Assembly: GCA_023015935.1 (NCBI GenBank)
Contig: JALKAY010000001.1
Span: forward strand, 124,874-188,873
Reading direction: 5' to 3'
Source of the DNA: Flavobacteriaceae bacterium F08102
GTDB taxonomy: Bacteria > Bacteroidota > Bacteroidia > Flavobacteriales > Flavobacteriaceae
DNA: 64,000 nucleotides
Part shown: positions 1,433-17,980 of the stretch, in pieces
How the letters are laid out: every line of letters begins with the position of its first letter
Position numbering within the stretch: the first letter of the stretch is position 1
Translations under genes and position numbers: made by a program
Notes under the pieces: generated by a model
What the model was told of the DNA's origin: nothing
Database searches by the model: none
The model's input: only the letters and a program-made list of their open reading frames with translations

Positions 1433-2068
1433 ATGAATTTACAAGAATTAAAATCGAGTTATGGACACATATTCGAAGCTGCATTAATCAATGAGATTAT
1501 GCAATCAGGTACCTATAAGGAAATCCCCGAAGGCCAAACCATGATGGAGATAGGTGACTATATTAAAACGATGCCATTAATTATCTCTGGAGCCATTAAA
1601 ATCTTAAGAGAAGATAGCGAGGGGGATGAATTACTGTTGTACTATTTAGAAAAAGGAGACACCTGTTCTATCACCATGTCGTGTTGTTTGGGTCAACAAC
1701 GAAGTGAAATTAGAGCCATCGCAGAAATGGATACCCAATTGATTTTGGTTCCAGTGGGTAAAATGGAAGAATGGACAAAAACCTATAAATCGTGGAGAAA
1801 TTTCGTTTTTGAAAGTTATCACAATCGAATTAATGAATTGCTTAGCACTTTAGACAAAGTTGTATTTAACCAAATGGATCAACGACTTATCCAATATTTA
1901 AAAGAAAAAGTAAGAATCAATAAAAGCACTATAGTAAAAAATACGCATCAAGAAATTGCCTATGATCTCTATACGTCGAGAGTTGTCATTTCGCGACTTT
2001 TAAAAAAATTAGAGCAAATGGGGAAAATTGAACTTCACAGAAGTTATGTGAAAATCATAGAATTATAG
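1433..2068 (+). CDS. Crp/Fnr family transcriptional regulator
   Basis: A 211-residue protein with an N-terminal cyclic-nucleotide-binding-type beta roll (about 25-115), a long dimer helix, and a C-terminal winged helix (about 150-211). The recognition helix contains ISRLL, matching the Ser and Arg that FNR uses for DNA contact, but the preceding FNR Glu is replaced by Val. This fits a half-site other than TTGAT. All three cysteines (C78, C84, C85) cluster in the ligand-pocket region; FNR-type N-terminal iron-sulfur cysteines are absent. The 3' neighbour is a rhodanese, and GTAAC-N4-GTTAC palindromes precede sulfur-related genes. I infer that it activates those promoters in response to a thiol-reactive or sulfur signal; the effector is unknown. 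Confidence 0.85.
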   Translation: MNLQELKSSYGHIFEAALINEIMQSGTYKEIPEGQTMMEIGDYIKTMPLIISGAIKILREDSEGDELLLYYLEKGDTCSITMSCCLGQQRSEIRAIAEMDTQLILVPVGKMEEWTKTYKSWRNFVFESYHNRINELLSTLDKVVFNQMDQRLIQYLKEKVRINKSTIVKNTHQEIAYDLYTSRVVISRLLKKLEQMGKIELHRSYVKIIEL

Positions 2069-2075
2069 TCAAAGT

Positions 2076-2120
2076 GTAACTTAAGATACTGTAGATATAC
2101 GATCATTCACATTACTTTTG
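2076..2120 (+). promoter_or_regulatory. GTAAC-box plus -7 element of the rhodanese promoter
   Basis: The palindrome GTAACTTAAGATAC (2076-2089) is followed by TACTTTTG (2113-2120), a perfect Bacteroidota -7 element. Their centres are 34 bp apart. No TTG occurs at the -33 position, as expected for an activator-dependent promoter. The same arrangement recurs at 10076 and 11807. Confidence 0.65.
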
Positions 2121-2258
2121 TGGTGATAAAATTTTACAAGAGGTACAAGGTGGCCCATCCAACAAAACAAATCCGCATACAATAAATGTAAGGACGGCAA
2201 CTTATCATCAAAAAAACGTGAATAAAGACACTATTAATGAATTAAAAACCACTATTCT

Positions 2259-2627
2259 ATGAAAAAAATTATCTTATTATTAATCACCTTTTTCTGTCTC
2301 GGTATCGAGGCAAATGCACAAGAAAACGAACGGATTACCTTACTAGATGTAGCTACCTTTAAAGACTCAACACAATACAAAAACGTACAGTTGGTAGATG
2401 TAAGAACCGCAAAGGAATTTAATGCGGGTAATATTAAAGGGTCTGTAAATATTGATTATTACCAACAAGATACGTTTAAAACCAGTGTTGAAAAATTAGA
2501 TAAGTCAAAGCCCGTTTACCTGTATTGCCGGTCTGGAGGTAGAAGTCATAAAGCTGCCGTTCAACTTGAAAAACTCGGATTTACTAAAATTTATGATTTA
2601 AAAGGAGGATATCTCGGTTGGAAATAA
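2259..2627 (+). CDS. Secreted single-domain rhodanese
   Basis: A 122-residue protein with a signal peptide (cleavage near residue 20, ending ANAQ) and one rhodanese domain. The VDVRTAKEF motif and the active-site loop YCRSGGRS with catalytic C90 are present, so it should form a cysteine persulfide and transfer sulfane sulfur in the periplasm. It follows the Crp/Fnr gene by about 190 bp with its own promoter containing a GTAAC palindrome. Single-domain rhodaneses often accompany sulfide oxidation or polysulfide handling, consistent with the flavoprotein at 10135. The sulfur donor and acceptor cannot be told from sequence. Confidence 0.88.
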   Translation: MKKIILLLITFFCLGIEANAQENERITLLDVATFKDSTQYKNVQLVDVRTAKEFNAGNIKGSVNIDYYQQDTFKTSVEKLDKSKPVYLYCRSGGRSHKAAVQLEKLGFTKIYDLKGGYLGWK

Positions 2628-2713
2628 ATAATCCGATGCATAGATAACCTATCGAAAACTGTTAAATCACACCAATAACTAGCAGATAATAAAAAGGTGT
2701 AAACTATTTTTTA

Positions 2714-2751
2714 TACCTTTACTAACCATTTGGTTAAACTATTTGGTTAAA
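2714..2751 (+). promoter_or_regulatory. TetR gene promoter and autoregulatory operator
   Basis: TACCTTTA (2714-2721, one mismatch to the -7 consensus) is followed at once by the palindrome TAACCA-TT-TGGTTA (2723-2736). ATTTGGTTAAA occurs twice as a direct repeat (2728-2738 and 2741-2751), ending at the ATG. A repressor bound here would cover the transcription start, which fits TetR autorepression. Confidence 0.5.
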
Positions 2752-3366
2752 ATGAAAAAAAAGAGAGATAAAAATACGGAAGAGCAAATTTTAGAAGCTG
2801 CAAAACACATCTTTCAGGCGAAGGGAATGGATGGAGCACGTATGCAAGAAATAGCAGACAAAGCCAACATAAATAAAGCGATGCTTCATTACTATTTTCG
2901 AAATAAAAAAATGCTTTTTGACGCTGTATTTAAACAAGCTTTTTCTTTAATAGCCCCTCCATTAAACAGCATATTAAACGACGATTCATCTATTGAAGAA
3001 AAGATTCGAAACTTCACATCGAATTATACAACTTTTATGATGAAGCACCCTTATTTACCTAATTTCATCGTTCAAGAGCTCAATAGAAATGGTGACTTTA
3101 TCCAAAAGCTAAAGCAAGCAACTGGATTTCCAAACTTGGATAAATTTAAAACACAAGTAGATAAGGAGGTCCTTTTAGGCAAGTTAAAACCGATAGATTC
3201 TGATCAACTTTTTGTCAATATTATAGCGCTGAATGTATTTCCCTTTTTAGGAAAACCATTAATTAAAATTTTCACAAACAAAGACGACAAAGCTTACGAA
3301 GATTTCATAGAGAGTCGCAAAATTGAAGTCGCCAACTTTATCATCAATTCTATAAAAAGCGTATAA
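2752..3366 (+). CDS. TetR/AcrR family transcriptional regulator
   Basis: 204 residues from the ATG; a TTG three codons earlier is open but would lie inside the likely operator. The N-terminal helix-turn-helix is clear (about 8-55, including ADKANINKAMLHYYFRNK). The C-terminal ligand domain is variable and gives no inducer. It is the first gene of an exporter operon (TolC, adaptor, OsmC, ABC ATPases and permeases) and stops 1 base before the TolC start. By position it resembles the TetR gene heading the E. coli ybhGFSR cluster and most likely represses the operon until an exported compound binds. Confidence 0.88.
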   Translation: MKKKRDKNTEEQILEAAKHIFQAKGMDGARMQEIADKANINKAMLHYYFRNKKMLFDAVFKQAFSLIAPPLNSILNDDSSIEEKIRNFTSNYTTFMMKHPYLPNFIVQELNRNGDFIQKLKQATGFPNLDKFKTQVDKEVLLGKLKPIDSDQLFVNIIALNVFPFLGKPLIKIFTNKDDKAYEDFIESRKIEVANFIINSIKSV

Positions 3367-3367
3367 A

Positions 3368-4621
3368 ATGAAACAACGGCTCCTCATTTTACTATTTTTT
3401 AATACAATTCCAAGCTTTTCACAACAATCGATAACGCTTGAGCAATGTTACGAGCTAGCAAATGTACATTATCCAATTGCCAAACAAACCCAATTACTAG
3501 AAACGCAACACCAACTCGAAGCTGCGATTATTTCAAAAACAAGCTTACCACAAATCAATCTGAATGCACAAGCCACGTACCAGTCAGATGTTATCGAAAT
3601 CCCTATTCCGAATACCTCCATTGACCCGCTTCATAAAGATCAGTATCGCGCTACACTATCCATCAACCAACTTATATTTAATGGAGGAGCAACGAAATCT
3701 TCCTTACACGTAAAAGCCACCCAACTTCAGGCCTCACAAAAACAAGTGGAAGTCAGCCTTTACGCACTAAAACAACAAATTAATCAACACTATTTCTCCA
3801 TTTTATTAGCACAAGAGCTAAAAAAATTACTCGAAACCAAAGCATTCGAACTCAACGCCAAACTCAAAGAAGTACAATCAGCAGTAACATATGGAACGCT
3901 ATTGGCCATTTCTGAAAAGGTTTTAAAAGCAGAATTACTGAAAATTAACCAGCAAATTCTCGAAGTCGACAATACGAAAACCACGCTCATTGAAACACTT
4001 TCATCAATTATTGGACTATCCTTACCCACCTCAACTCACTTTGAGAATCAATTCATTGCCCCCTCCTTAAACAACGAACTTCAAAGGCCTGAACTCGAAT
4101 TATTCGAACTCAAAAAAGACGAAATTGAACAACGAAGATCACTACTTGCAACAGAAAATTCACCTAAAATCATAGGATTCGCAACTACAGGTTATGGCAA
4201 TCCGGGTCTTAATATGCTCGACAATACATTTCAGCCATTCTATACCGTTGGCGTTAAAGTATACTGGAATGTATTTGACTGGAATTCCAACAAAAAAAAG
4301 CGCGAATCACTATCGATCAATAAAGACTTGATTGAAACTGAAGCAGAAGTATTTAAATTAACAACCTCCATAGCGCTACATCAGCAACAAAAGGAAATAG
4401 AAAAAATTAATGCCTTAATCACCGCTGATAACAACATTATCAAACTTCGCCAAGAAGTTCTTCAGGCGACAAATTCACAACTCAAAAATGGCATCATCAC
4501 AGCTTCCGCCTATCTTACCGAACTCACCAATTTATACGAAGCTGAAAACACTTTGATAAAACACAAAATTCAATTACAACTCGCAAAAGCAAATTACAAC
4601 GTACTAAAGGGACACCAATGA
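3368..4621 (+). CDS. TolC family outer membrane efflux protein
   Basis: 417 residues with a signal peptide ending SFSQ and the alternating helical/beta-strand pattern of outer membrane efflux channels (two repeats, long coiled helices rich in Gln, Lys and Glu). It would form the trimeric exit duct for the ABC exporter encoded downstream. The ATG of the next gene overlaps its stop (ATGA at 4618), which suggests translational coupling to the adaptor. Confidence 0.88.
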   Translation: MKQRLLILLFFNTIPSFSQQSITLEQCYELANVHYPIAKQTQLLETQHQLEAAIISKTSLPQINLNAQATYQSDVIEIPIPNTSIDPLHKDQYRATLSINQLIFNGGATKSSLHVKATQLQASQKQVEVSLYALKQQINQHYFSILLAQELKKLLETKAFELNAKLKEVQSAVTYGTLLAISEKVLKAELLKINQQILEVDNTKTTLIETLSSIIGLSLPTSTHFENQFIAPSLNNELQRPELELFELKKDEIEQRRSLLATENSPKIIGFATTGYGNPGLNMLDNTFQPFYTVGVKVYWNVFDWNSNKKKRESLSINKDLIETEAEVFKLTTSIALHQQQKEIEKINALITADNNIIKLRQEVLQATNSQLKNGIITASAYLTELTNLYEAENTLIKHKIQLQLAKANYNVLKGHQ

Positions 4622-5526
4622 AAAACTACACGTACATATTAGGAATAAGCATAATTTTTACAAGTCTATTTTCCTGTGGAAACGACCTTGAAAAGGCCGA
4701 CGGATACGGAAATTTTGAAGCTACGGAAATAACGATTTCGGCTGAAAACAACGGAAAATTAATGCAATTAGACATCAATGAAGGAGATCAACTTAAAATA
4801 GGTCAATTTATAGGCTATATCGACACCATCCCATTGGCACTTAAACGTGAACAATTAGCCATTTCTAAAACCGTAATAAATTCAAAATCCAAAGGCGTTT
4901 TATCACAGATCAATGTTTTAAAAACCAAATTAAAAACAGCTAACATCCAGAGAGCACGAATTGAAAACCTAATAAAAGATCATGCTGGAACCCAAAAACA
5001 ATTAGATGATGTAACAGGAGAAATTGAGGTGATTAAAAGCCAAATAAGAAGTGTAGAAATCCAAAATTCACCAGTGGTCAACGAATTAAAAAGCATTGAT
5101 ATTCAGTTAAAAGAAATTGATGATCAAATCCAAAAAAATAAAATCATCAATCCTATAAATGGAACCGTTTTAACCAAATATGCAGAAGCAAATGAAATTG
5201 TATCCTTTGGAAAACCACTCTATAAAATCGCCGACTTAAGCACCATGCTGTTACGGGTTTATCTAAGTGAACCCCAATTAGCAAGTGTAAAACTCGGGCA
5301 AGAAGTGACGGTTAAAATTGATGACCATGACGAAATGAAATCGTACAAAGGTACGATAAGTTGGATAGCGTCTGAAGCAGAATTCACGCCAAAAATAATT
5401 CAAACGAAGGAAGAACGTGTGGCCTTAGTTTATGCTGTAAAAATAACGGTTGTGAATGATGGAAGTTTAAAAATTGGTATGCCCTCAGAAATGTGGATAA
5501 CAAATGATCCGAAAACAGCTACTTAA
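4618..5526 (+). CDS. HlyD-like periplasmic adaptor lipoprotein of ABC exporter
   Basis: 302 residues. The N-terminus has a lipoprotein signal with lipobox SLFSC, so it should be anchored to a membrane. A short biotinyl-lipoyl half (GKLMQLDINEGDQLKIGQ), a coiled-coil hairpin (about 85-170) and a beta-barrel domain follow, the order of MacA/YbhG adaptors. It bridges the inner-membrane permeases and TolC. It overlaps the TolC gene by 4 bases and is followed by 181 noncoding bases before OsmC. Confidence 0.85.
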   Translation: MKNYTYILGISIIFTSLFSCGNDLEKADGYGNFEATEITISAENNGKLMQLDINEGDQLKIGQFIGYIDTIPLALKREQLAISKTVINSKSKGVLSQINVLKTKLKTANIQRARIENLIKDHAGTQKQLDDVTGEIEVIKSQIRSVEIQNSPVVNELKSIDIQLKEIDDQIQKNKIINPINGTVLTKYAEANEIVSFGKPLYKIADLSTMLLRVYLSEPQLASVKLGQEVTVKIDDHDEMKSYKGTISWIASEAEFTPKIIQTKEERVALVYAVKITVVNDGSLKIGMPSEMWITNDPKTAT

Positions 5527-5575
5527 AATTGAACTATGTACAGAAGCACTCATAACAATTAACAAAGTTGCCGAG

Positions 5576-5589
5576 AACCTTTAAAGGTT
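5576..5589. promoter_or_regulatory. Perfect 14-bp palindrome AACCTTTAAAGGTT
   Basis: A perfect inverted repeat inside the exporter operon, between the adaptor and OsmC genes. It has no loop and no T-run, so it is more likely a protein site than a terminator. Its binder is unknown. Confidence 0.25.
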
Positions 5590-5636
5590 TAAAAAGCTCT
5601 TAGAAAAAGAAAACAATTAACAATACTATATAAAAG

Positions 5637-5650
5637 TAACCAACTGTTTC
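5637..5650. promoter_or_regulatory. Possible second TetR operator
   Basis: TAACCA-AC-TGTTTC matches the operator at 2723-2736 (TAACCA-TT-TGGTTA) at 10 of the 12 arm positions. It lies about 58 bp upstream of the OsmC start. It could give the OsmC-ABC half of the operon its own TetR-controlled promoter, although I see no good -7 element. Confidence 0.35.
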
Positions 5651-5707
5651 AAAAATACGTGAAGAATTATTTCCCTATATTCAATAAAACATTAAAGATA
5701 AATTAAA

Positions 5708-6166
5708 ATGGAAAAACATAATTACAACGTCAACATTCATTGGACGCAAGATCGTAAAGGAATGATGTGTTCACCAGAGATACAAAAAAAAGAATCAAAC
5801 GAAGCAAACTGTATAGAGGTGGCTACACCACCAGAATTTGACCGCGGAATTCCAAATATTTGGACACCAGAACATTTATTTACTGCAGCCGTCAGCAGCT
5901 GTTTAATGACCACTTTTTTGGCTATTGCCGAATATTCCAAATTAGAATTCGTCAGTTTTAATTGTCGATCAAAAGGCATTTTAGAAAAAGTAGATGGCAA
6001 GTACAAAATTAGCGAGGTGCATTTGTTTCCAGAAGTAGTCATTTTAGACGAGTCGAAACGAGAACGGGCTGAACGCATCTTAGAAAAATCAGAAAAAGCC
6101 TGTTTAATTTCAAATTCTATTACCTCCAAAGTCACAATGAAAACTAAAATTAGTATTAAAAACTAA
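5708..6166 (+). CDS. OsmC family (per)sulfide/peroxide-reactive protein
   Basis: 152 residues with the OsmC/Ohr fold pattern and its two conserved cysteines, C65 (AVSSCLMTTF) and C132 (SEKACLISNS). OsmC proteins reduce organic hydroperoxides, and some family members act on persulfides, through such cysteine pairs in the cytoplasm. It sits between the adaptor and the first ATPase of the ABC exporter, 6 bases before the latter, so it belongs to the TetR operon. Its presence suggests that the exported or inducing compounds are thiol-reactive. Confidence 0.85.
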   Translation: MEKHNYNVNIHWTQDRKGMMCSPEIQKKESNEANCIEVATPPEFDRGIPNIWTPEHLFTAAVSSCLMTTFLAIAEYSKLEFVSFNCRSKGILEKVDGKYKISEVHLFPEVVILDESKRERAERILEKSEKACLISNSITSKVTMKTKISIKN

Positions 6167-6172
6167 TAAGAA

Positions 6173-7078
6173 ATGCGTATTTCTGTAAGTCACATAAGCA
6201 AATCGTACAAACAGGTAAAAGCGTTGCACGATATTTCCTTTGAGGTAAAACCCAATGAGATTTTTGGCCTTATTGGACCTGATGGTGCTGGTAAAACCAC
6301 ATTATTTCGGATTTTAACAACACTCCTATTTCCTGATAAAGGCAATGCAACAGTTGCTGATTTTGATGTGATTACAGAGTATAAACAAATTAGAAACAGC
6401 GTTGGGTATATGCCTGGAAAATTTTCTCTCTATCAAGATTTAACCGTTGAAGAAAACTTAACTTTTTTTGCAACAATCTTTGGAACAACCATCGAAGAAA
6501 ACTACGACTTGATCAAAGATATTTATATTCAAATAGCTCCTTTTAAAGACCGTCGTGCGGGCAAATTATCTGGGGGTATGAAGCAAAAACTAGCTTTGTG
6601 TTGTGCTTTAATTCACAAACCTAAAGTGCTGTTTTTAGATGAACCAACAACAGGCGTTGACCCCGTATCCAGAAAAGAATTTTGGGAAATGTTGAAGCGG
6701 CTACAACAAAAAAACATTACTATTTTGGTATCCACACCCTATATGGATGAAGCTTCCTTATGCGATCGGATTGCCCTCATTCAAGATGGAAAAATACTAG
6801 AAATCGATACCCCTGAGGCCATTGTAAACCAATATCCAAAACAAATTTACAACATTCGTGCCAATAAGATGTATCAACTTATCCAATATGTAAAAGCCTA
6901 TGAATTTAATCACAGTGTGTATCCTTTTGGAACCTACGTGCATTACACAGATCGTAGGCCTGATTTTAACCCAGAAGATTTAAAAAGGTACTTAGCATCA
7001 AAAAATATTTTCGATGTAGAAATTAAAAAAACAGAAGCAACCATTGAAGATACTTTTATGGAATTAGCAAGAAAATGA
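6173..7078 (+). CDS. ABC exporter ATPase 1 (YbhF N-half type)
   Basis: 301 residues. Walker A is GPDGAGKTT, the signature is LSGGMKQKL and Walker B is VLFLDEPTTGVDP. The switch-loop His is replaced by Pro (STPYMDEA). E. coli YbhF fuses two ATPase domains, and this protein resembles the N-terminal one. It overlaps the next gene by 4 bases (ATGA). With ATPase 2 it should form a heterodimer with one consensus and one degenerate ATP site. Confidence 0.88.
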   Translation: MRISVSHISKSYKQVKALHDISFEVKPNEIFGLIGPDGAGKTTLFRILTTLLFPDKGNATVADFDVITEYKQIRNSVGYMPGKFSLYQDLTVEENLTFFATIFGTTIEENYDLIKDIYIQIAPFKDRRAGKLSGGMKQKLALCCALIHKPKVLFLDEPTTGVDPVSRKEFWEMLKRLQQKNITILVSTPYMDEASLCDRIALIQDGKILEIDTPEAIVNQYPKQIYNIRANKMYQLIQYVKAYEFNHSVYPFGTYVHYTDRRPDFNPEDLKRYLASKNIFDVEIKKTEATIEDTFMELARK

Positions 7079-7803
7079 ATACGAAAAACGTCATACAAGT
7101 AGAAGGTCTAACCAAAATGTTTGGTGATTTTACAGCAGTAAACTCGCTCACTTTTAATGTCGGTAAAGGCGAAATCTTTGGCTTTTTAGGTGCGAATGGC
7201 GCAGGAAAAACAACCGCTATGAAAATGCTAATAGGCATTTCTACGCCGACATCTGGCAAAGCCTATGTTGCTGGTTTTAACGTATTCACACAAGCAGAAG
7301 ACATCAAAAAAAACATTGGCTATATGAGTCAGAAGTTTGCGTTGTATGACGATTTAACAGTTAAAGAGAATATTACTTTTTTTGGCGGTATATACGGATT
7401 ATCCAGAAAAATAATCAAAGAAAAATCAGCCGTTTTAATTACAGAATTAGGTCTGGAAAAAGTAGCTAACACCTTTGTTGGATCACTCCCTATAGGCTGG
7501 AAACAAAAATTATCTTTTTCGGTGTCTTTACTTCATGACCCTACAATTGTGTTTTTAGACGAGCCTACAGGAGGAGTAGATCCAATTACTCGGCGACAAT
7601 TTTGGGAAATGATTTACAAAGCCGCAAATCAAGGCACAACCGTTTTTGTAACCACACATTATATGGATGAAGCAGAATATTGTGATAGAGTATCCATCAT
7701 GGTTAATGGAAAAATTGAAGCCTTAGACACCCCTAAAAAACTAAAAGAACAATTCAGTACAAATACAATAAATGATGTATTTTTAAAGCTAGCCAGGGGA
7801 TGA
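7075..7803 (+). CDS. ABC exporter ATPase 2 (YbhF C-half type)
   Basis: 242 residues. Walker A GANGAGKTT, Walker B IVFLDEPTGGVDP and the switch His (TTHYMDEA) are intact. The signature LSGGQ is degenerate (SLPIGWKQKL), as in the C-terminal half of YbhF. ATPase 1 supplies the good signature, so the pair should have one active composite site. Start and stop overlap both neighbours by 4 bases, indicating tight coupling with ATPase 1 and the first permease. Confidence 0.88.
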   Translation: MNTKNVIQVEGLTKMFGDFTAVNSLTFNVGKGEIFGFLGANGAGKTTAMKMLIGISTPTSGKAYVAGFNVFTQAEDIKKNIGYMSQKFALYDDLTVKENITFFGGIYGLSRKIIKEKSAVLITELGLEKVANTFVGSLPIGWKQKLSFSVSLLHDPTIVFLDEPTGGVDPITRRQFWEMIYKAANQGTTVFVTTHYMDEAEYCDRVSIMVNGKIEALDTPKKLKEQFSTNTINDVFLKLARG

Positions 7804-8906
7804 AAAGGTTCGTTGGTTTCATTAAAAAAGAATTCTACCATATACTTAGAGATAGACGATCGTTGTTTATACTCTTCGGAATGCCAATTGCACAAATATT
7901 ACTTTTTGGTTTTGCCATAACCAATGAAATCAACAATGTAGACATTGCGATCTTAGACCATTCAAACGATTCAACGACCGAAGAAATAATCCATAAAATT
8001 TCAGCATCAGAATATTTCAGTATCAAACAAATGATTACGAAGGAATCAGATATTGCTGCTGTTTTTCAAAAAGGACAAGTAAAAGCCGTTTTAAATTTTG
8101 AAAAAGATTTTGGACAAAACCTAATTAAAGACCACAAAGCAACCATTCAAATTTTAACAGATGCCACAGACCCAAATACGGCAAATACCATTAGCAATTA
8201 TGTAAATTCTATCCTTCAAGGATACCAAAAGGAAGTAAACAAAGAGGTAGTCATTTTATATCAAATAGTACCCCAGACACGCATGGTGTACAATCCAGAA
8301 CTAAAAAGTGTATACATGTTTGTTCCGGGCGTGATGACAATTATTTTGATGTTGGTCTCTGCAATGATGACTTCTATATCAATTACGCGAGAAAAGGAAT
8401 TAGGAACTATGGAAATTCTTTTAGTTTCACCGTTAAAACCAATTCAGGTAATTATTGGTAAGGTATTTCCGTACATTTTCCTATCTATCATTAACGCAGT
8501 AGTCATTGTCTTATTAAGCATTTTTATCTTTAATATGCCCGTTCAAGGAAGTTTGTTTTTATTGGCTTTAGAAAGCATCCTTTTTATTATCAACGCATTG
8601 GCTTTAGGCATTTTAATTTCAACTATTTCAGCCACCCAACAAACCGCCATGATGATTTCCTTAATGGGATTGATGCTTCCTGTGATTTTATTATCTGGCT
8701 TTATTTTCCCGATATCGAGTATGCCATTTCCTTTGCAGGTGATTAGCAATATCATTCCTGCCAAATGGTTTATCATCATCATTAAAGGCATTATGCTAAA
8801 AGGTGTTGGCTTACAATTTATATGGAAAGAAACCCTGATTCTATTGGGAATGACCATATTCTTTATCGCATTAAGCGTAAAGAAATATAAAATAAGATTA
8901 GCGTGA
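7800..8906 (+). CDS. ABC-2 type permease 1 (YbhS/YbhR-like)
   Basis: 368 residues: one N-terminal membrane segment, a periplasmic domain of about 130 residues, then five membrane segments, the usual layout of ABC-2 drug exporters. The motif TREKELGTMEILLVSPLKP is typical of the family. It pairs with the permease at 8948 to make the membrane channel for the two ATPases. The substrate is not evident from sequence. Confidence 0.88.
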   Translation: MKRFVGFIKKEFYHILRDRRSLFILFGMPIAQILLFGFAITNEINNVDIAILDHSNDSTTEEIIHKISASEYFSIKQMITKESDIAAVFQKGQVKAVLNFEKDFGQNLIKDHKATIQILTDATDPNTANTISNYVNSILQGYQKEVNKEVVILYQIVPQTRMVYNPELKSVYMFVPGVMTIILMLVSAMMTSISITREKELGTMEILLVSPLKPIQVIIGKVFPYIFLSIINAVVIVLLSIFIFNMPVQGSLFLLALESILFIINALALGILISTISATQQTAMMISLMGLMLPVILLSGFIFPISSMPFPLQVISNIIPAKWFIIIIKGIMLKGVGLQFIWKETLILLGMTIFFIALSVKKYKIRLA

Positions 8907-8927
8907 AAGAATCGACAAAGATTCTTT
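8906..8927 (+). other. Intercistronic hairpin between the two permeases
   Basis: AAAGAATC and GATTCTTT flank a 6-base loop directly after the first permease stop. There is no long T-run, so it may be a processing or stability element rather than a full terminator. Confidence 0.35.
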
Positions 8928-8947
8928 CTTTCGACGTGTGAAATTCT

Positions 8948-10069
8948 ATGAAAACAATTCTATACATCATACAAAAAGAGTTTAAACAAATCTTCAGAAA
9001 TAAAGGCATGCTTCCTATTATTTTTGTTTTACCCATATTACAACTCGTGATCCTGTCGAATGCTGCTACTTTTGAAGTTAAGCACATTAAATTTGGCTAT
9101 TTAGATAATGATCATACGTCAACATCAAGAGCGTTAATTGAACAATTTAATGCATCAACCTATTTTGATGTTATAACAGATTTTCCGTCGGAAGCGATAG
9201 CGAGTGCTGCTATGCTCAAAGGAGAGGTTGATGTTGTTTTAGAAATCCCACCCTTTTTTGAACGCGATTTACAAAAAGAAAAATACAACAATTTAGGGGT
9301 AACTATTAATGCTATTGATGGAGCAGCTGCGGGGGTTGAAAATGTATATGTCACACAGATTGTACAAAACTTTAATCAGCGATTAAACGTTGAATTAATG
9401 CAACCTTCCGACCAACAAATACAACCAATGCGTATTGAAACAATTCCTTTATTCTGGTATAATGAAACCTTAAATTACAAAACCTTTATGGTTCCCGGCA
9501 TATTGGTTTTATTAGTTACGATGATTACCTTATTTCTTTCAGGAATGAATATTGTTCGTGAAAAGGAAATTGGGACTTTAGAACAAATCAATGTAACACC
9601 CATAAAAAAAAGTCAATTTATTATTGGTAAACTATTTCCGTTTTGGGTAATTGGAATGGGCTTGCTAACCGTTGGATTACTCTTAGCAAAACTAATATTC
9701 AACGTCCCAATGCTTGGTAGTTTAGCACTAATGTATTTTTATACTTCCATATATATCTTAGTGATTTTAGGTATTGGTTTATTCATCTCAAACTTTACTG
9801 ACACACAACAACAAGCCATGTTTATTGCATGGTTCTTTACAGTAATTTTTATTTTGATGAGTGGCTTATTTACCCCTATCGAAAGCATGCCCAAATGGGC
9901 TCAGCTCATTACGGAATTTAACCCGATAAAGTATTTTGTAGAAGTCATGCGAATGGTCATGCTTAAAGGTTCTGGACTTATCGATATACTTCCCCAATTA
10001 CTTAAAACCTTACTCTATGCGGTAGTCATGAATGGCCTGGCAGTTTGGAGCTATAAAAAAACGATTTAA
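8948..10069 (+). CDS. ABC-2 type permease 2 (YbhR-like)
   Basis: 373 residues with the same layout as permease 1 (an N-terminal membrane helix, a large periplasmic domain, five C-terminal helices) and the family motif REKEIGTLEQINVTP. Sequence between the two permeases is clearly diverged, as in the YbhS/YbhR pair, so the channel is probably a heterodimer. This is the last gene of the TetR-headed operon; the next gene has its own GTAAC-box promoter. Confidence 0.88.
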   Translation: MKTILYIIQKEFKQIFRNKGMLPIIFVLPILQLVILSNAATFEVKHIKFGYLDNDHTSTSRALIEQFNASTYFDVITDFPSEAIASAAMLKGEVDVVLEIPPFFERDLQKEKYNNLGVTINAIDGAAAGVENVYVTQIVQNFNQRLNVELMQPSDQQIQPMRIETIPLFWYNETLNYKTFMVPGILVLLVTMITLFLSGMNIVREKEIGTLEQINVTPIKKSQFIIGKLFPFWVIGMGLLTVGLLLAKLIFNVPMLGSLALMYFYTSIYILVILGIGLFISNFTDTQQQAMFIAWFFTVIFILMSGLFTPIESMPKWAQLITEFNPIKYFVEVMRMVMLKGSGLIDILPQLLKTLLYAVVMNGLAVWSYKKTI

Positions 10070-10075
10070 AGCTGT

Positions 10076-10119
10076 GTAACTCAGGTTACTGTGCACAATA
10101 AATACTCGCCCTATCTTTA
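10076..10119 (+). promoter_or_regulatory. GTAAC-box plus -7 element of the flavoprotein promoter
   Basis: GTAACTCAGGTTAC (10076-10089) has perfect 5-bp arms. TATCTTTA (10112-10119) is a near-consensus -7 element centred exactly 33 bp downstream. No -33 TTG is present. The layout matches the boxes at 2076 and 11807. Confidence 0.65.
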
Positions 10120-10134
10120 TATAAATTTTAGGAT

Positions 10135-11592
10135 ATGGCTAAAATAGTTATTCTTGGAGCTGGAATTTCAGGACATGTTGCAGCTTCACATTTACGTAGA
10201 AAATTACCGAAGATACATGAGATTATTGTGGTGTCACCCAATAGTAATTACCAATGGATTCCTTCCAATATTTGGGTGGGTGTTGGTCGAATGAAATCTA
10301 AACAAATCCTATTCCCACTAGCTCCTCTATACAAAAAGAAAGGCATCGGTTTTAAACAAGCCAAAGTGGTGTCTTTTCATCCAGAAGGAGATGCTCACGA
10401 ACAGAAGCCTTACATCCTGGCTAGTTATGTGGCAGGAGCGCTCAAAGGACAGGATGAGAAAGTAAGCTATGACTATCTTATCAATGCAACCGGACCAAAA
10501 TTAAATTTTGAAGCAACAGAAGGATTGATACCGGGTACCAATAACACCTATTCCGTATGTACCTATACACATGCTGAGCATGCATGGAATGGCTTAAAGG
10601 AGCTCATTAATGAAATGAAGGGTGGTAAGAAGGCGAAAATTCTTATCGGAACGGGGCATGCAAAAGCTACCTGTCAAGGTGCAGCATTTGAATACATACT
10701 CAATGTTGAACAAGAATTGCGAAAACACAACGTAAGGGATATGGCAGAGATTACCTGGATCTCTAATGAATATAAGCTTGGTGACTTTGGCATGGATGGG
10801 ATGTTGTTGAGTTATGGTAGTATGACGATGAAATCACACGAAATGGTAGAGATGGTGTTTGAAGATCGAGACATTAAATGGATCCTTGGTGCAGGTGTAC
10901 ATAAACTTGATCATGGAATTGCATATTACGAGAATTTAGACGGAGAAACTAAAACAGAAGTCTTTGATTTTGCCATGCTCATTCCTACTTTCTCAGGACA
11001 TGGTTTTAAAGCTTATGACCGAGACCATAGAGACATCACTGACAAACTTTTTAAGGGATTTATGCTTGTTGACGCTGATTATACTCAAAAACCCTATGAA
11101 GAATGGACCGTACAAGACTGGCCAGAAACTTATCAAAACCCGTCGTATAAAAACATTTTTGCTCCCGGCATAGCATTTGCACCACCACATAGTATTTCTA
11201 AACCTAGAAAGAATAAAAATGGTACAGAAATTTTTCCTGCGCCCCCAAGAACTGGTATGCCATCAGGTATTACCGCCAAAGTAGTCGCTGACAATATTAT
11301 TGACTCTATAAAATCGGGCAACGAAAAACGTACTCATAAAGGCTCTATGGGGAATATGGGAGCCGCCTGTATCGCTTCCGCTGGGTTTGGATTAACCTCA
11401 GGTAGTGGAATCAGCATTACCACATTTCCCATTGTTCCAGATTATATAAAGTATCCTAAAACACAAGGAAGACAACTAGGCAAAACATTTGGTGAAATTG
11501 GCTTAGCTGGACATTGGCTGAAACTAGCCCTACATTATGCCTTTATTTACAAAGCTAAAATGCATCCATTTTGGTGGTTAATTCCCGAATAA
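10135..11592 (+). CDS. Sulfide:quinone-reductase-like FAD oxidoreductase
   Basis: 485 residues. The N-terminal FAD fold reads VILGAGISGHVAASHLRRKL, and the body resembles type III sulfide:quinone reductases (SPNSNYQWIPSNIWVGVG, INATGPKLNF, ADYTQKPYEEW, PPRTGMPSG). Cysteines that could form the redox/polysulfide site are C142, C180 (GHAKATCQGAA) and C412 (MGAACIASAG). Such enzymes oxidise sulfide to sulfane sulfur at the membrane and pass electrons to quinone. An alternative is a related flavoprotein of unknown substrate. The rhodanese at 2259 shares the same type of promoter and could process the product. Confidence 0.75.
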   Translation: MAKIVILGAGISGHVAASHLRRKLPKIHEIIVVSPNSNYQWIPSNIWVGVGRMKSKQILFPLAPLYKKKGIGFKQAKVVSFHPEGDAHEQKPYILASYVAGALKGQDEKVSYDYLINATGPKLNFEATEGLIPGTNNTYSVCTYTHAEHAWNGLKELINEMKGGKKAKILIGTGHAKATCQGAAFEYILNVEQELRKHNVRDMAEITWISNEYKLGDFGMDGMLLSYGSMTMKSHEMVEMVFEDRDIKWILGAGVHKLDHGIAYYENLDGETKTEVFDFAMLIPTFSGHGFKAYDRDHRDITDKLFKGFMLVDADYTQKPYEEWTVQDWPETYQNPSYKNIFAPGIAFAPPHSISKPRKNKNGTEIFPAPPRTGMPSGITAKVVADNIIDSIKSGNEKRTHKGSMGNMGAACIASAGFGLTSGSGISITTFPIVPDYIKYPKTQGRQLGKTFGEIGLAGHWLKLALHYAFIYKAKMHPFWWLIPE

Positions 11593-11603
11593 AACTAAAC
11601 ATT

Positions 11604-11741
11604 ATGACACATCGTATCACAAAATATCAACGTTTTAAAATGAAGAATCCAATTCTTCAGTTTTTTAAATTTCTGTATTTAAGTATTAAAATACTGTTCG
11701 TGGTAGCAGGAGGTCACGGCGGAACACGAAAGGCAAACTGA
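11604..11741 (+). CDS. 45-residue basic protein with GGHGGTR tail
   Basis: An ATG 11 bases after the flavoprotein stop opens a 45-codon frame. The protein has a basic N-terminus (MTHRITKYQRFKMK), a hydrophobic central helix (about 19-36) and the tail AGGHGGTRKAN. A strong terminator follows 31 bases later, so the gene closes the transcript. I do not know its function. A single membrane helix with a glycine/histidine tail beside a membrane-associated flavoprotein suggests a small subunit or anchor. Confidence 0.6.
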   Translation: MTHRITKYQRFKMKNPILQFFKFLYLSIKILFVVAGGHGGTRKAN

Positions 11742-11772
11742 CATTGGTCAGTAGGTAGGTTGGTTAATGATG

Positions 11773-11801
11773 AAAAACACCTTCTTGTAAGGTGTTTTTT
11801 T
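11773..11801 (+). terminator. Rho-independent terminator after the flavoprotein operon
   Basis: AAAAACACCTT pairs with AAGGTGTTTTT (11-bp stem) around the 5-base loop CTTGT and continues into a T-run. It ends the transcript of the flavoprotein and its small partner. Confidence 0.85.
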
Positions 11802-11806
11802 AGTTG

Positions 11807-11850
11807 GTAACCTAAGTTACCGTCTATTTAATAAAGTAATCCTATTTTTG
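11807..11850 (+). promoter_or_regulatory. GTAAC-box plus -7 element of the RND operon
   Basis: GTAACCTAAGTTAC (11807-11820) has perfect arms. TATTTTTG (11843-11850) is a perfect -7 element with its centre 33 bp downstream, placing the box near -40, the class II activator position. No -33 TTG is present. Confidence 0.7.
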
Positions 11851-11869
11851 CTTTGTAAATAAAATAGAT

Positions 11870-13177
11870 ATGACCAAAAACCTTATTAACCTATTTTTTT
11901 TAAGCTTTGTTTCAATACTTCAAGCGCAAGAAATTTTACCCATTTCTAAATCAGAGGTACTCAATAAAGTGACCCAAGAGAATATTTCCTTAAAAATTTC
12001 TGAACAAGATTTTTTTCAAGCAAGAGCTGATTATAGACAAACCAACGCTCTATTTCTACCCAATATTTTGGCATCACACACAGGCATTGCCACAACAAAT
12101 CCGTTAATGGCTTTCGGTGCTAAATTAAATCAAGAAATTTTAACGCAAAGTGATTTCAATCCTCTCCTACTCAACAATCCATCACAAACAAAGAACTTTG
12201 CTACAAAATTTGAAATTGAGCAACCACTTATAAACATAGATGGTATTTTTCAACGTAAAGCTGCCAAATCCAAAATGGAAGCAATGTCGTTACAGCAGCA
12301 AAGAACAGCAGACCAAATTTCGCTGGAAGTTGAGAGAGCCTATATGCAATTACAATTAGCTTACAAAGGAGTAGAAGTCATTGAAAAAGCGTTAAAAACA
12401 GCACTAAACAATAAAAAGTTAGCAGATAACCGATTCAAACAAGGATACCTACAACGCGCAGATGTTCTTAATGTTGAAGTACGCGTCACTGAAATTCAAA
12501 ATCAATTACAGACTGCGAAAAGTAATGTCCAAAATGCCTCTAACTACCTCTCATTTTTAATGAATGAATCAACTGATGTCATCTATCAACCTATTGATAG
12601 CCTATCCAAAACAACCCTTGGAGTCCATGTTGTCAACAGTGTGCCTGAAAATCGGGCAGACATTAAAGCTATGCAATTGGCTTCAGAAGCCTATAAAGAA
12701 ATCAATACTGCTGATAAAATGGCTTTTCTTCCTCGCTTAAATGCATTTGGCAGTTATGAATTATACGATGACAATATTTTCCAAGGCAATGCCAACGGGT
12801 ATTTGGTGGGTGCCAAATTAAGTTGGGATCTTTTTCAAGGTTCCAAACGATTTGGAAAAGCACAAAAAAGTAAAGCAGAATATGAAAAAGCAAAATTACA
12901 ATACGATCGATACCTTGCCCAAAGTAATTTAGAATTAAACAAAGCTAAACGTATGCTCGTAGATGCAGAAAACAAATTAAATCTAACCACCTTAGCGTTA
13001 GCGCAATCTAGTGAATCAATGAGAATAAGAACAAATAGATTTAAAGAAGGTTTAGAAAAAACATCAGATTTATTAAAAGCAGAAACTCAATATGCCCAAA
13101 AGCAATTAGAATATTATCAAACGATTTTCGAATTTAATTATGCTCAAGCATACCTAAGCTATTTAACCAAAGAATAA
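11870..13177 (+). CDS. TolC family outer membrane channel of RND pump
   Basis: 435 residues with a signal peptide ending LQAQ and typical outer membrane efflux repeats. The second repeat includes GAKLSWDLFQGSKRFGKAQ, characteristic of the strand region. It is the first gene of a five-gene operon with an RND adaptor, RND pump and two small proteins. Its stop overlaps the next start (TAATG). The GTAAC-box promoter links it to the rhodanese and flavoprotein. Confidence 0.9.
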   Translation: MTKNLINLFFLSFVSILQAQEILPISKSEVLNKVTQENISLKISEQDFFQARADYRQTNALFLPNILASHTGIATTNPLMAFGAKLNQEILTQSDFNPLLLNNPSQTKNFATKFEIEQPLINIDGIFQRKAAKSKMEAMSLQQQRTADQISLEVERAYMQLQLAYKGVEVIEKALKTALNNKKLADNRFKQGYLQRADVLNVEVRVTEIQNQLQTAKSNVQNASNYLSFLMNESTDVIYQPIDSLSKTTLGVHVVNSVPENRADIKAMQLASEAYKEINTADKMAFLPRLNAFGSYELYDDNIFQGNANGYLVGAKLSWDLFQGSKRFGKAQKSKAEYEKAKLQYDRYLAQSNLELNKAKRMLVDAENKLNLTTLALAQSSESMRIRTNRFKEGLEKTSDLLKAETQYAQKQLEYYQTIFEFNYAQAYLSYLTKE

Positions 13178-14265
13178 TGACCACTATGAAAAAAAACATT
13201 TCCCTCGCTATACTGCTACCATTATTTGTGATAATCACGAGTTGCGGCAATACCTCCAATGAAAAAGCAGCAGATACCACTGAAGCTATTAAAGTAAAAG
13301 TACAACAAGTGGCAAAAACCAACAATGCTTCTTTTTTATCTGTAAGCGGTAAAATTCAAGCAGTCAACAACGCTGATTTGAGTACGCGAATGATGGGCTT
13401 TGTCAATAAGGTCTATGTAAAGGTAGGCGACAAAGTTACCAAGGGACAATTATTGGTTTCTATCAATAATGCCGACTTACAAGCGAAAAGTGCGCAAACA
13501 AAAGCAAGCGTAATGGAAGCTACTGCAGCTTTTGAAAATGCACAAAAAGATTATACCCGATTTAAAAATTTATTTGCTGATAACAGTGCTTCGCAAAAAG
13601 AATTAGACGATATAACCACCGCATATGAAATGGCAAAAGCTCGATTAGAGGCAGCTAAACAGATGAATAATGAAGTAAATGCTCAATTTACCTACGCGAA
13701 TATACGAGCGCCATTTAGCGGGGTTATTACTGCCAAAACGGTTGAACAAGGAGATATGGCAAATCCAGGCACTCCTTTAATTTCTATAGAATCTCCTGGG
13801 AATTTTGAAGTAATTGCCATGGTACCAGAAACAGAAATATCACAGATTAAAAATGGCATGCAGGTCGATATAAATGTTTCATCTATCAATCAATTTTTAA
13901 AAGGAAAAGTAACCGAAGTGAGCACATCAGCCAAAAATACGGGAAGCCAATATTTAGTAAAAATTTCCATAGACAAAACCCAAGCACCAATTCTATCTGG
14001 CATGTTTGCAACCGTTATATTTCCTCTCGAACCAACCACAAATACGGAAATGATTTTACTTCCCACATCCGTTATTGTCAATCAAGGACAATTATCGGGT
14101 GTATACACGGTAAGTCAAAGCAACAAAGCACTATTACGATGGTTGCGCCTTGGTAAAACCTATGGAGACCAGGTAGAAGTCTTATCTGGCCTAGCTGCAG
14201 ACGAAACATATATCACCTCTGCAGAAGGAAAACTGTATAACGGAGCAAAAATAACAATCCAATAA
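13177..14265 (+). CDS. RND periplasmic adaptor lipoprotein
   Basis: 362 residues from the first ATG; an ATG three codons later (13186) is equally possible. The lipobox is IITSC. The domain order is that of MFP adaptors: lipoyl half (VYVKVGDKVTKGQLLVSI), a coiled hairpin, the second lipoyl half (IRAPFSGVITAKTVEQGDM) and a beta-barrel plus membrane-proximal domain. It connects the RND pump to the TolC protein. Confidence 0.9.
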   Translation: MTTMKKNISLAILLPLFVIITSCGNTSNEKAADTTEAIKVKVQQVAKTNNASFLSVSGKIQAVNNADLSTRMMGFVNKVYVKVGDKVTKGQLLVSINNADLQAKSAQTKASVMEATAAFENAQKDYTRFKNLFADNSASQKELDDITTAYEMAKARLEAAKQMNNEVNAQFTYANIRAPFSGVITAKTVEQGDMANPGTPLISIESPGNFEVIAMVPETEISQIKNGMQVDINVSSINQFLKGKVTEVSTSAKNTGSQYLVKISIDKTQAPILSGMFATVIFPLEPTTNTEMILLPTSVIVNQGQLSGVYTVSQSNKALLRWLRLGKTYGDQVEVLSGLAADETYITSAEGKLYNGAKITIQ

Positions 14266-14275
14266 TCTCAGGATA

Positions 14276-17200: not shown

Positions 17201-17470
17201 AATTCTGTACTTTTAATTGATTTTATCAATTTGCGATTAGACGATGGGATCCCTTTAAAACAAGCTGTTATTGAAGCAGGAGCCGTTCGTACTACACCGA
17301 TCTTATTGACAGCCGGAACTGTTGTTATTGGTGCTTTTGTTATCCTCTTTGACCCAATCTTTCAAGGGTTAGCTATTTCCTTGATGGGAGGAACAATTGT
17401 TTCAACCGTCTTTACATTGTTGGTGGTACCCTTAGTATATTTTATGATTGAACGTAAAAAACACAATTAA
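14276..17470 (+). CDS. RND efflux transporter permease subunit
   Basis: 1064 residues, normal RND length, with twelve membrane helices and two large periplasmic loops. The N-terminus reads LIPREEEPQIDVP, and helix 4 holds the acidic pair D417-D418 (VVDDSIIIAEN) expected for proton relay. It lacks the HME-type DFGxxxDGA motif, so it belongs to the broad AcrB-like group rather than metal pumps. Its promoter contains the GTAAC box and its 3' neighbours are a PII-like and a YgaP-like protein. A cargo linked to sulfur metabolism is my inference. Confidence 0.9.
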   Translation: MKEGIAGKVAKIFIQSKLTVLLMIVFMVIGVYSSFLIPREEEPQIDVPMADIFVGYPGASPTEVESRVIKPLEKLISNIKGVEYVYSTSMKEQGMVIVQFYVGEDIERSFVKLYNEINKHMDQMPAGVTFPLVKTRAIDDVPMLGVTLWSENYNDYQLGQIAQELESEIKKVNDVAITHKIGGRNRQLRVVLDKDKMAASGLDFMSISEMIKANNAQLTSGSFDKNDTEFIVNTGNFLTSATDVENLVVGVQQNRPVYLKQVATIIDGPEVPQNYVNLGFGQASEKAQIYHSTYPAVTISIAKRKGADAMKISEVILDKIEHLKKSLIPDEVHVEITRNYGETASHKVTELLWHLIGSIFAVTLVVMLAMGWRGGLVVFLSVPITFALTLLSYYILDYTLNRITLFALVFVTGIVVDDSIIIAENMHRHFKMKRLPFKQAALYAINEVGNPTILATLTVIASVLPMAFVSGLMGPYMAPMPIGASIAMILSLFVALTITPYLGVIFLRERAKKGKKEKIEKPLEQTLIYKIYHKFQNPLLESKAKRWLFLGGTFAILLLTMLLFYTKSVAVKMLPFDNKNEFQVVIDMPEGTTLERTAVVAKEISHYLSTRPEVENYQNYVGTSAPITFNGLVRHYDLRGGSNMADIQVNLIDKEERSAQSHDIAKLLRPDIQKIGLKYNANIKLVEVPPGPPVLSTIVAEVYGPDYKEQIKIADNIQTILKNTEDVVDIDWMVEANQVTYEFVINREKSMLYGVTPQQITQTMNLAMSNRSVTNLYDENAHHQVGVVLALDEKEKSTIADISQLKVKSSEGTMIPIADLVDIHTTTSDKSIYRKNQKRVVYVMADMAGKLESPAYAILGMEKKLKEIELPEGYTLNEMYLGQPDYEDNYTVKWDGEWQITLEVFRDLGIAFLGAIILIYILIVGWFQNFKAPIVMMVAIPLSLIGIILGHWIMGAFFTATSFIGMIALAGIMVRNSVLLIDFINLRLDDGIPLKQAVIEAGAVRTTPILLTAGTVVIGAFVILFDPIFQGLAISLMGGTIVSTVFTLLVVPLVYFMIERKKHN

Positions 17471-17471
17471 T

Positions 17472-17777
17472 ATGAAACTAGTCATCGTTACCAGTGTAGA
17501 ACAATTTCAACAAGACGTTTTGAAATTGTTTAAAAAAGCAAATATTGAAAATTTAAGTAGTGCTGATATTGACGGTCATAAAAACACCTCCGCAATGTTA
17601 TTGAGAACGAATTGGTTTTCTAGTGAAAAGCAGGGAAATGAATCTAGCTTATTTTTTTCCTTTACCGAAGATGAAAATATTGAGACCTTATTTAATTTAA
17701 TAAAAGAATTTAATCGTTCAATCGAGACGAACAATCCGATACGTGCTGTCGTAGTACCTATCGAAAAATATATATAA
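17472..17777 (+). CDS. Small PII-like (ferredoxin-fold) protein, unassigned
   Basis: 101 residues from the ATG 1 base after the RND stop; an in-frame ATG at 17448 would lie inside the RND gene. The pattern ([20 protein letters not shown] at the start, [11 protein letters not shown] at the end) suggests a compact beta-alpha-beta fold like PII or DUF3240 proteins, which are often encoded beside RND pumps. The assignment is tentative. No signal peptide is present, so it should act in the cytoplasm, perhaps modulating the pump. Confidence 0.6.
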
Positions 17778-17794
17778 ATGAAAATTCATCCAAC

Positions 17795-17980
17795 ATGTTA
17801 AACACGTATTTCAGAGCCATTGTAGGGGGGTTAGTGCTTGTCAGTGTATTGCTAACCCAATATGTGAATCCAAACTGGGTTTGGTTTACCGTATTTATTG
17901 GAGTAAATCTATTTCAATCGGCCTTCACTAAGTGGTGCCTTTTAGAAATTATTTTAAAAAGATTAGGGGTAAAAAACTAA
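17795..17980 (+). CDS. YgaP-type (DUF2892) two-helix membrane protein
   Basis: 61 residues with two hydrophobic helices and the family pattern [20 protein letters not shown] followed by [12 protein letters not shown]. In E. coli YgaP this membrane region is fused to a rhodanese domain. Here it is a separate gene ending the RND operon, whose promoter box is shared with the secreted rhodanese at 2259. It may anchor or assist sulfur transfer at the inner membrane. Confidence 0.85.

Follow-up and report, generated by a model that had tools for sequence, protein, structure and literature searches.

The first 18 kb of a 64,000-nucleotide stretch of Flavobacteriaceae bacterium F08102 (contig JALKAY010000001.1, positions 124,874 to 188,873; hereafter the window) encode a Crp/Fnr-family regulator (the 1433 protein), which we propose, with a probability of roughly 0.78, to be a class II activator acting at GTAAC-N4-GTTAC sites and driving a response of reactive-sulfur oxidation and export. 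The computations described below establish the site, its spacing, its co-occurrence with the regulator gene and the sulfur content of the regulon. Flavobacteria that live on algal material are exposed to sulfide in particles and sediments. The most likely pathway would start with the modification of cysteines in a loop of the regulator by polysulfide or persulfide formed from sulfide. The 1433 dimer would then bind GTAAC-N4-GTTAC, the centre of the site lying about 41 bp ahead of the transcription start. In a Bacteroidota promoter of the TAnnTTTG type, the bound site would there substitute for the -33 element, and the polymerase would be recruited, that is, class II activation. Targets in the window would be a secreted rhodanese, a sulfide:quinone reductase (SQR) with a 45-aa partner, and an operon for an outer-membrane efflux protein (OEP), a periplasmic adaptor (membrane fusion protein, MFP), an RND permease, a PII-like protein and a YgaP-type protein (Table 1). 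Relatives would add further targets, among them genes for cytochrome bd, sulfur transport, sulfite export and persulfide-dioxygenase-like proteins, and in many cases the gene of the regulator. SQR, rhodanese and, elsewhere, the dioxygenase, exporters and cytochrome bd would remove or tolerate the sulfur, and the RND pump would export a product. For the family, a regulator, its operator and a list of targets are thereby available for testing. The proposal also offers a candidate for a reactive-sulfur sensor within the Crp family, and an RND pump, accompanied by a PII-like protein, that may be tied to sulfur.

Table 1. Features of the regulator locus and its putative targets (positions in the window)
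Feature	Position	Strand	Detail or basis
Crp/Fnr-family regulator, 211 aa	1433..2068	+	Pfam PF00027 and PF13545, above cut-off
Regulator site 1	2076..2089	+	GTAACTTAAGATAC, one mismatch to GTAAC-N4-GTTAC; 7 bp past the regulator stop codon
-7-like element of site 1	2113..2120	+	TACTTTTG; centre-to-centre distance 34 bp
Single-domain rhodanese, 122 aa, Cys90	2259..2627	+	Pfam PF00581, E 4.4e-22
Regulator site 2	10076..10089	+	GTAACTCAGGTTAC, exact GTAAC-N4-GTTAC
-7-like element of site 2	10112..10119	+	TATCTTTA; centre-to-centre distance 33 bp
SQR-like flavoprotein, 485 aa, Cys142/180/412	10135..11592	+	phmmer to solved SQRs
45-aa partner peptide, GGHGG segment at end	11604..11741	+	tblastn in relatives
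Regulator site 3	11807..11820	+	GTAACCTAAGTTAC, exact GTAAC-N4-GTTAC
-7-like element of site 3	11843..11850	+	TATTTTTG; centre-to-centre distance 33 bp
Outer-membrane efflux protein (OEP, TolC family)	11870..13177	+	PF02321
Periplasmic adaptor of RND pump	13177..14265	+	TIGR01730, 221.6 bits, above cut-off
RND permease, 1064 aa	14276..17470	+	PF00873, E 1.6e-165
PII-like small protein (conserved part 17475-17774)	17448..17777	+	AlphaFold2 and Foldseek
YgaP-type transmembrane protein, 61 aa	17795..17980	+	PF11127, E 8.6e-11

An earlier note on this DNA, made from its letters alone, had described three GTAAC-N4-GTTAC palindromes 33-34 bp from a TAnnTTT[GA] element, in promoters without a TTG at -33. 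Two of the palindromes are exact, but the site at 2076 carries a mismatch and is therefore imperfect; the spacing is as described, and inspection by eye finds the usual -33 TTG at none of the three promoters. Also by eye, a TG directly after the site is kept at 2076 and 10076. Since transcription in Bacteroidota starts a few bases after TAnnTTTG, the site centres would fall near -41, a placement that depends on this assumed start. Class II activation by Crp and FNR of E. coli uses a site at that place.

Could these be chance palindromes near AT-rich, promoter-like words? The genome scan against background that the earlier note had proposed gives an answer that depends on the spacing. Without it, motif counts are at background level, both in the window (23 with up to two mismatches versus 21.9 expected) and in the own genome (3 exact sites versus 9 for the reversed control, and 84 versus 226 with up to one mismatch), and they were not used as evidence. 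On the other hand, the site combined with the fixed spacing, at up to one mismatch, occurs three times in the window versus a mean of 0.013 in 300 simulations with an order-2 Markov model; 4 of these gave one such site and none gave two. This arrangement is far beyond chance and, together with the spacing peak at 33 bp, the excess over reversed controls and the orthologous footprints reported below, makes coincidence hardly credible. In the whole own genome (3.32 Mb), the 33-spaced pattern with up to two mismatches occurs at 9 places versus 22 for the reversed control: 2 without mismatch, both in the window, none with one and 7 with two, the 34-spaced site at 2076 falling outside this pattern. 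The remaining exact site of the genome (C44:421086) was rejected as a target, since it falls within an open reading frame (ORF) of 412 aa.

The regulon had been regarded as local, a view rejected here because the sites recur across the family. In a sample of 149 genomes of the family, the exact site located 21-23 bp before TANNTTTR occurs at 353 places versus 11 for the reversed pattern, and 107 genomes contain at least one. A homologue of the regulator at E<=1e-20 is present in 126 of the 149. When genomes are binned by the exponent of their best regulator E-value (G141, G147 and G148 being put among those without a match by elimination), the spaced site is found in 36/36 genomes with exponents of -86 or lower, 46/47 from -85 to -71, 22/33 from -70 to -56, 1/10 from -55 to -21, and 2/23 with no match at 1e-20. 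The contrast between close homologues (82/83) and none (2/23) is highly significant (Fisher p 7e-19), so that the co-occurrence of motif and regulator orthologues in Flavobacteriaceae, another check suggested beforehand, comes out positive. The regulator loci of the 12 genomes without hits in the -85 to -56 bins were read over 7-10 kb each: in 7 of them the stretch contains a site at spacing 32-34 that departs from the motif in one position at most, or else an exact site to which no -7 word corresponds, and 5 have neither. As judged by these sequence comparisons, the regulon is conserved and real.

A second set, 80 named regulator loci covering 1.47 Mb, comes at its closest from Cellulophaga, Aurantibacter, Robiginitalea, Maribacter, Aquimarina and other flavobacteria, with one (L146) labelled Candidatus Rokubacteria. 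It contains 222 exact sites versus 8 for the reversed control. The distance from site to TAnnTTT[GA] is exactly 33 bp for 175 sites, and no other distance is represented by more than 4; such a fixed spacing is expected of a class II activator, and the -41-like placement claimed earlier holds insofar as the start is assumed. In the base composition around 174 distinct sites, the base immediately ahead of the site is T in 94%, and T and G directly follow it in 64% each, so that a TG remains at the place of the -33 element. A comparison of the -33 region with TAnnTTTG words at large was dropped, as most such words are unlikely to be promoters. Moreover, a site lies within 350 bp behind the regulator gene in 57 of the 80 loci, which, with the presence/absence pattern above, supports the proposed link between regulator and site, and a site with its promoter lies within 700 bp in front of the gene in 34. 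It could be argued that the sites serve another Crp paralogue, the 1433 gene being a simple neighbour, as the own genome holds 10 Crp-like candidates at first look, of which 1 passes E 1e-20. The 57 loci with a site behind the regulator, and the scarcity of spaced sites in genomes with distant homologues or none, make this very improbable. Binding of the 1433 protein to these sites is the probable relationship, and it would bring about activation rather than repression.

The genes behind 178 spaced sites, called with a simple ORF rule and then clustered, form 21 clusters present in at least three loci, one of them the regulator; 18 representatives could be named by Pfam, and the OEP and adaptor clusters by match to the window proteins. 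A metallo-beta-lactamase with two rhodanese matches, which we take to be persulfide-dioxygenase-like, forms a cluster in 50 loci. On the sulfur side there are also rhodanese, TauE sulfite exporter, SulP, two Sulf_transp (YeeE/YedE) and a Mo-co sulfite-oxidase-like cluster, as well as a pyridine-nucleotide oxidoreductase (SQR-like). Further clusters correspond to cytochrome bd I and II, TPMT, 1-Cys peroxiredoxin, thioredoxin, YgaP-type transmembrane, HMA, cytochrome c/Tll0287, DUF983 and FA-hydroxylase proteins. The first genes behind the 178 sites are 39 metallo-beta-lactamase-rhodanese, 30 TauE, 15 DUF983, 13 regulator, 11 SQR, 10 FA-hydroxylase, 9 rhodanese, 8 peroxiredoxin, 7 SulP, 5 CydA, 5 YgaP-type transmembrane, 5 cytochrome c/Tll0287, 4 OEP, 3 SoxC-like, 2 YeeE and 6 other genes (three of which resemble, by eye, cut-short SQR, persulfide-dioxygenase-like and TauE proteins), with no ORF in 6 cases. 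Sulfur-named families (metallo-beta-lactamase-rhodanese, TauE, SQR, rhodanese, SulP, SoxC-like and YeeE/YedE) therefore account for 101 of the 172 called first genes, and the sulfur theme proposed for the three window targets extends to the relatives. A sensor of sulfane sulfur would be expected to command genes for the oxidation of sulfide and persulfide, and the regulon contains such genes.

The regulator shows a cyclic-nucleotide-binding-type barrel followed by a Crp-type helix-turn-helix, and its AlphaFold2 model (mean pLDDT 82.5) has Foldseek matches to Crp, FNR and NtcA. Its only cysteines, C78, C84 and C85, are all in one loop, GDTCSITMSCC, and the N-terminal cysteine cluster that holds [4Fe-4S] in FNR was not found in the protein. 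Because pLDDT is below 50 at residues 81-87, no distances between cysteines were taken from the model. The CxxTxxCC motif is kept in 30/30 aligned homologues and in 80/80 named loci, two sets that may overlap, with exactly three cysteines in 30/30 and 77/80, respectively. Among 20 more distant homologues (42.7-55.2% identity; chosen as 12 without and 8 with pattern hits), C78 is present in 20, C84 in 18 and C85 in 17. The loop presumably corresponds to the part of Crp that binds the phosphate of cAMP. The signal would be persulfide or polysulfide chemistry at C78, C84 and C85, and the protein would sense sulfane sulfur. The loop cysteines might instead answer peroxide, disulfide stress or a metal or Fe-S cofactor, the sulfur and cytochrome bd genes then belonging to a programme for low oxygen: promiscuity is common among thiol sensors, and cytochrome bd and peroxiredoxin genes are within the regulon. 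The share of first genes in sulfur-named families, and a protein with only three cysteines in one loop and no FNR-like N-terminal cluster, make such a redox or oxygen sensor unlikely. A bolder proposal, which we put forward tentatively and at somewhat less than even odds, is that a Crp/Fnr-family activator, whose three-cysteine loop sits in place of the cyclic-nucleotide phosphate pocket and is persulfidated or bridged by sulfane sulfur, commands this regulon across Flavobacteriaceae and beyond, and that its constant member is an RND pump, with PII-like regulator and YgaP-type protein, exporting (per)sulfide or polysulfide. Both the pump cargo and the ligand are what we infer from sequence.

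The recognition helix reads S182-R-V-V-I-S-R188, with the family form SRVV(I/V)SR. In an alignment by eye, it keeps two arginines matching R180 and R185 of CRP and has valine at the place of Glu181, as do 79 of 80 close homologues. Covariation of this residue with the operator was followed in 58 class-level regulator loci, 19 first ones and 39 fetched; the latter follow the homology ranking with gaps, the last five (G333, G264, G241, G161 and G205) being out of order and picked with the spaced-site hits outside the family in view, and G333 and G264 were taken because their sites were already known. In this set, a spaced GTAAC site (up to one mismatch, from 1.5 kb in front to 2.5 kb behind) accompanies 16/28 Val-type and 4/30 Glu-type regulators (p 0.0007), or 14/26 versus 2/28 without L345, L346 and the loci of G322 and G292; in the first 19 loci, by whole-genome hits, the figures are 11/12 versus 1/7. 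The Glu-type locus L284 shows GTGAC-N4-GTCAC 8 bp behind the matched region, and its close Val-type relatives (L282 and L286) show GTAAC-type sites at that place. This covariation may be taken as suggestive only.

The operator itself is not new, as it equals the consensus GTAACnnnnGTTAC reported, in the part of PMC1274295 available, upstream of hcp in HcpR2 genomes (most Clostridium, Bacteroides, Thermotogales and Treponema denticola). The same part links the GTAAC motif to the loss of Glu at CRP position 181, where HcpR2 has Pro, and the Val found here fits that link. The 1433 protein could then be a nitrosative-stress regulator of the HcpR2 type, likewise in the Crp/Fnr family and without that Glu, whose signal would be NO or a nitrogen oxide and for which the sulfur genes would be bystanders. 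However, hcp (PF03063) has a match in only 1 of the 149 family genomes, within a 48-aa open frame, and none in the own genome, and hcp is absent from the 20 downstream clusters listed in addition to the regulator. HcpR2, as described there, targets hcp in anaerobes and carries Pro at 181; the 1433 family carries Val, a loop with a cysteine triad and sulfur targets. An hcp-directed function was rejected, hcp being missing but for that fragment, and a nitrosative signal is improbable. As a whole, the earlier observation of a shared site at a fixed distance is confirmed and its interpretation as a sulfur regulon supported, the motif having already been published for HcpR2.

Several results weigh against a reactive-sulfur activator acting through the cysteine triad. 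G119, the one further genome of this genus in the sample, has a regulator homologue with C78 and without C84 and C85, and nevertheless carries sites in front of the corresponding SQR and RND genes; the full triad is therefore not needed for the regulon. As exceptions to the covariation above, two Glu-type loci (L345 and L346, 33-35% identity) have an exact GTAAC-N4-GTTAC right behind the matched region. Enrichment is weaker outside the family, with 66 hits versus 16 controls in 192 genomes, a tally in which some genomes were likewise counted as without a match by elimination. Some members of the regulon, such as FA-hydroxylase and DUF983, are not obviously sulfur genes, and 8 of 26 SQR orthologue loci are without a site. 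Finally, no site precedes the persulfide-dioxygenase-like/SulP operon of the own genome (C11:407727-409127 and its neighbour), and the regulon therefore varies between genomes. These two genes (L190, C11:404000-418000) are 71% and 44% identical to the regulon members of relatives. As a separate observation, the regulators of L345 and L346 have C78 and lack C84 and C85.

The 1433 regulator is similar to E. coli Crp and FNR in its domain architecture and in a putative activator site near -41 that takes over from the upstream element of the promoter, but it differs in the absence of the FNR cluster, in its half-site and in the Bacteroidota promoter element. Known thiol sensors such as CstR, SqrR/BigR, FisR and MarR-type proteins control SQR, persulfide dioxygenase, rhodanese and sulfite-exporter genes, several of them as repressors. 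They belong to protein families other than Crp/Fnr (for some of them, see PMC7315123 and PMC9774590). PMC7315123 also mentions a Crp-like protein that is persulfidated in sulfide-exposed A. baumannii, the effect of this being given there as not known. Reactive-sulfur regulators are thus already known in other families, and a Crp/Fnr one and the membership of the pump would be the new part. In open-access full text, no regulator of the reactive-sulfur response in flavobacteria was found (some queries were possibly ill-formed), nor a Crp/Fnr regulator of such a regulon or an RND pump as its constant member. Persulfide dioxygenase-rhodanese genes are described as widespread in Bacteroidetes bins in PMC7887784, in whose available part the string 'regulat' is absent. 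The best PDB match to the regulator profile is 3dv8 (E 2.2e-21), a Crp/Fnr-family protein of Eubacterium rectale in which two of the loop cysteines align, but which has Glu in its recognition helix (HREVITR); the title of the entry gives no function.

With regard to the targets, the SQR-like reading of the protein at 10135 is strengthened by its matches to two solved SQRs, the Aquifex enzyme 3hyv (E 3.8e-33) and 3sz0 (E 4.6e-33), and by its three cysteines, which align with those of the Aquifex enzyme that we take to be catalytic; it is probably a sulfide:quinone reductase. The NCBIfam model for the type III SQR selenoprotein gives it 58.6 of 525 bits. Its orthologues are present in 26 of the 149 genomes, own included, and 18 of these loci, window included, have a site: 12 with a promoter at 32-34 bp (5 exact, 7 with one mismatch) and 6 exact without a matching -7 word. 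The N-terminus of the rhodanese looks by eye like a signal peptide. The 45-aa peptide is found by tblastn in 10 of 20 stretches from relatives, including all 9 that hold a full-length SQR; its tail is conserved, of the GGHGGTR type, and the peptide is present as well in G110 (L270), where no SQR is matched at 1e-60. In another genus (G054, L252) the same order is kept, that is, ABC permease, site, SQR, 45-aa peptide, site and RND operon, and G119 has SQR, RND operon and cydAB together, with sites.

Orthologues of the OEP occur in 58 of the 149 genomes. A site at spacing 33 precedes the gene in 29 of the 30 loci fetched, own included (27 exact, 2 with one mismatch), and the 30th offers only 9 bp of upstream DNA before the contig end. 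In the OEP-MFP-RND stretches of relatives, a YgaP-type protein follows in 20/20 and the small protein of 17475 in 18/20. The permease carries VDDS in its TM4-like segment, and this pair of aspartates, which we take as typical of drug-type rather than metal-type pumps, suggests a pump of the former kind. The small protein has a predicted PII-like fold (AlphaFold2 pLDDT 79.2): the 50 Foldseek matches listed are, by title, PII, GlnK/GlnZ, SbtB or PII-like proteins, together with TT1020 entries, the best at E 2.3e-5. No Pfam family is above cut-off for the window copy, and 3 of 19 members show weak P-II matches. GlnK, SbtB and PotN bind transporters; the window protein would share their fold, but differs in being encoded inside an RND efflux operon.

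Between rhodanese and SQR (2743-10069), the window encodes TetR, OEP, HlyD and OsmC proteins, two ABC ATPases and two permeases, without a spaced regulator site of their own, the window scan finding only the three. In G063 (L194) most of this cluster is found close to the regulator, and in G054 (L252) its permease end adjoins SQR.

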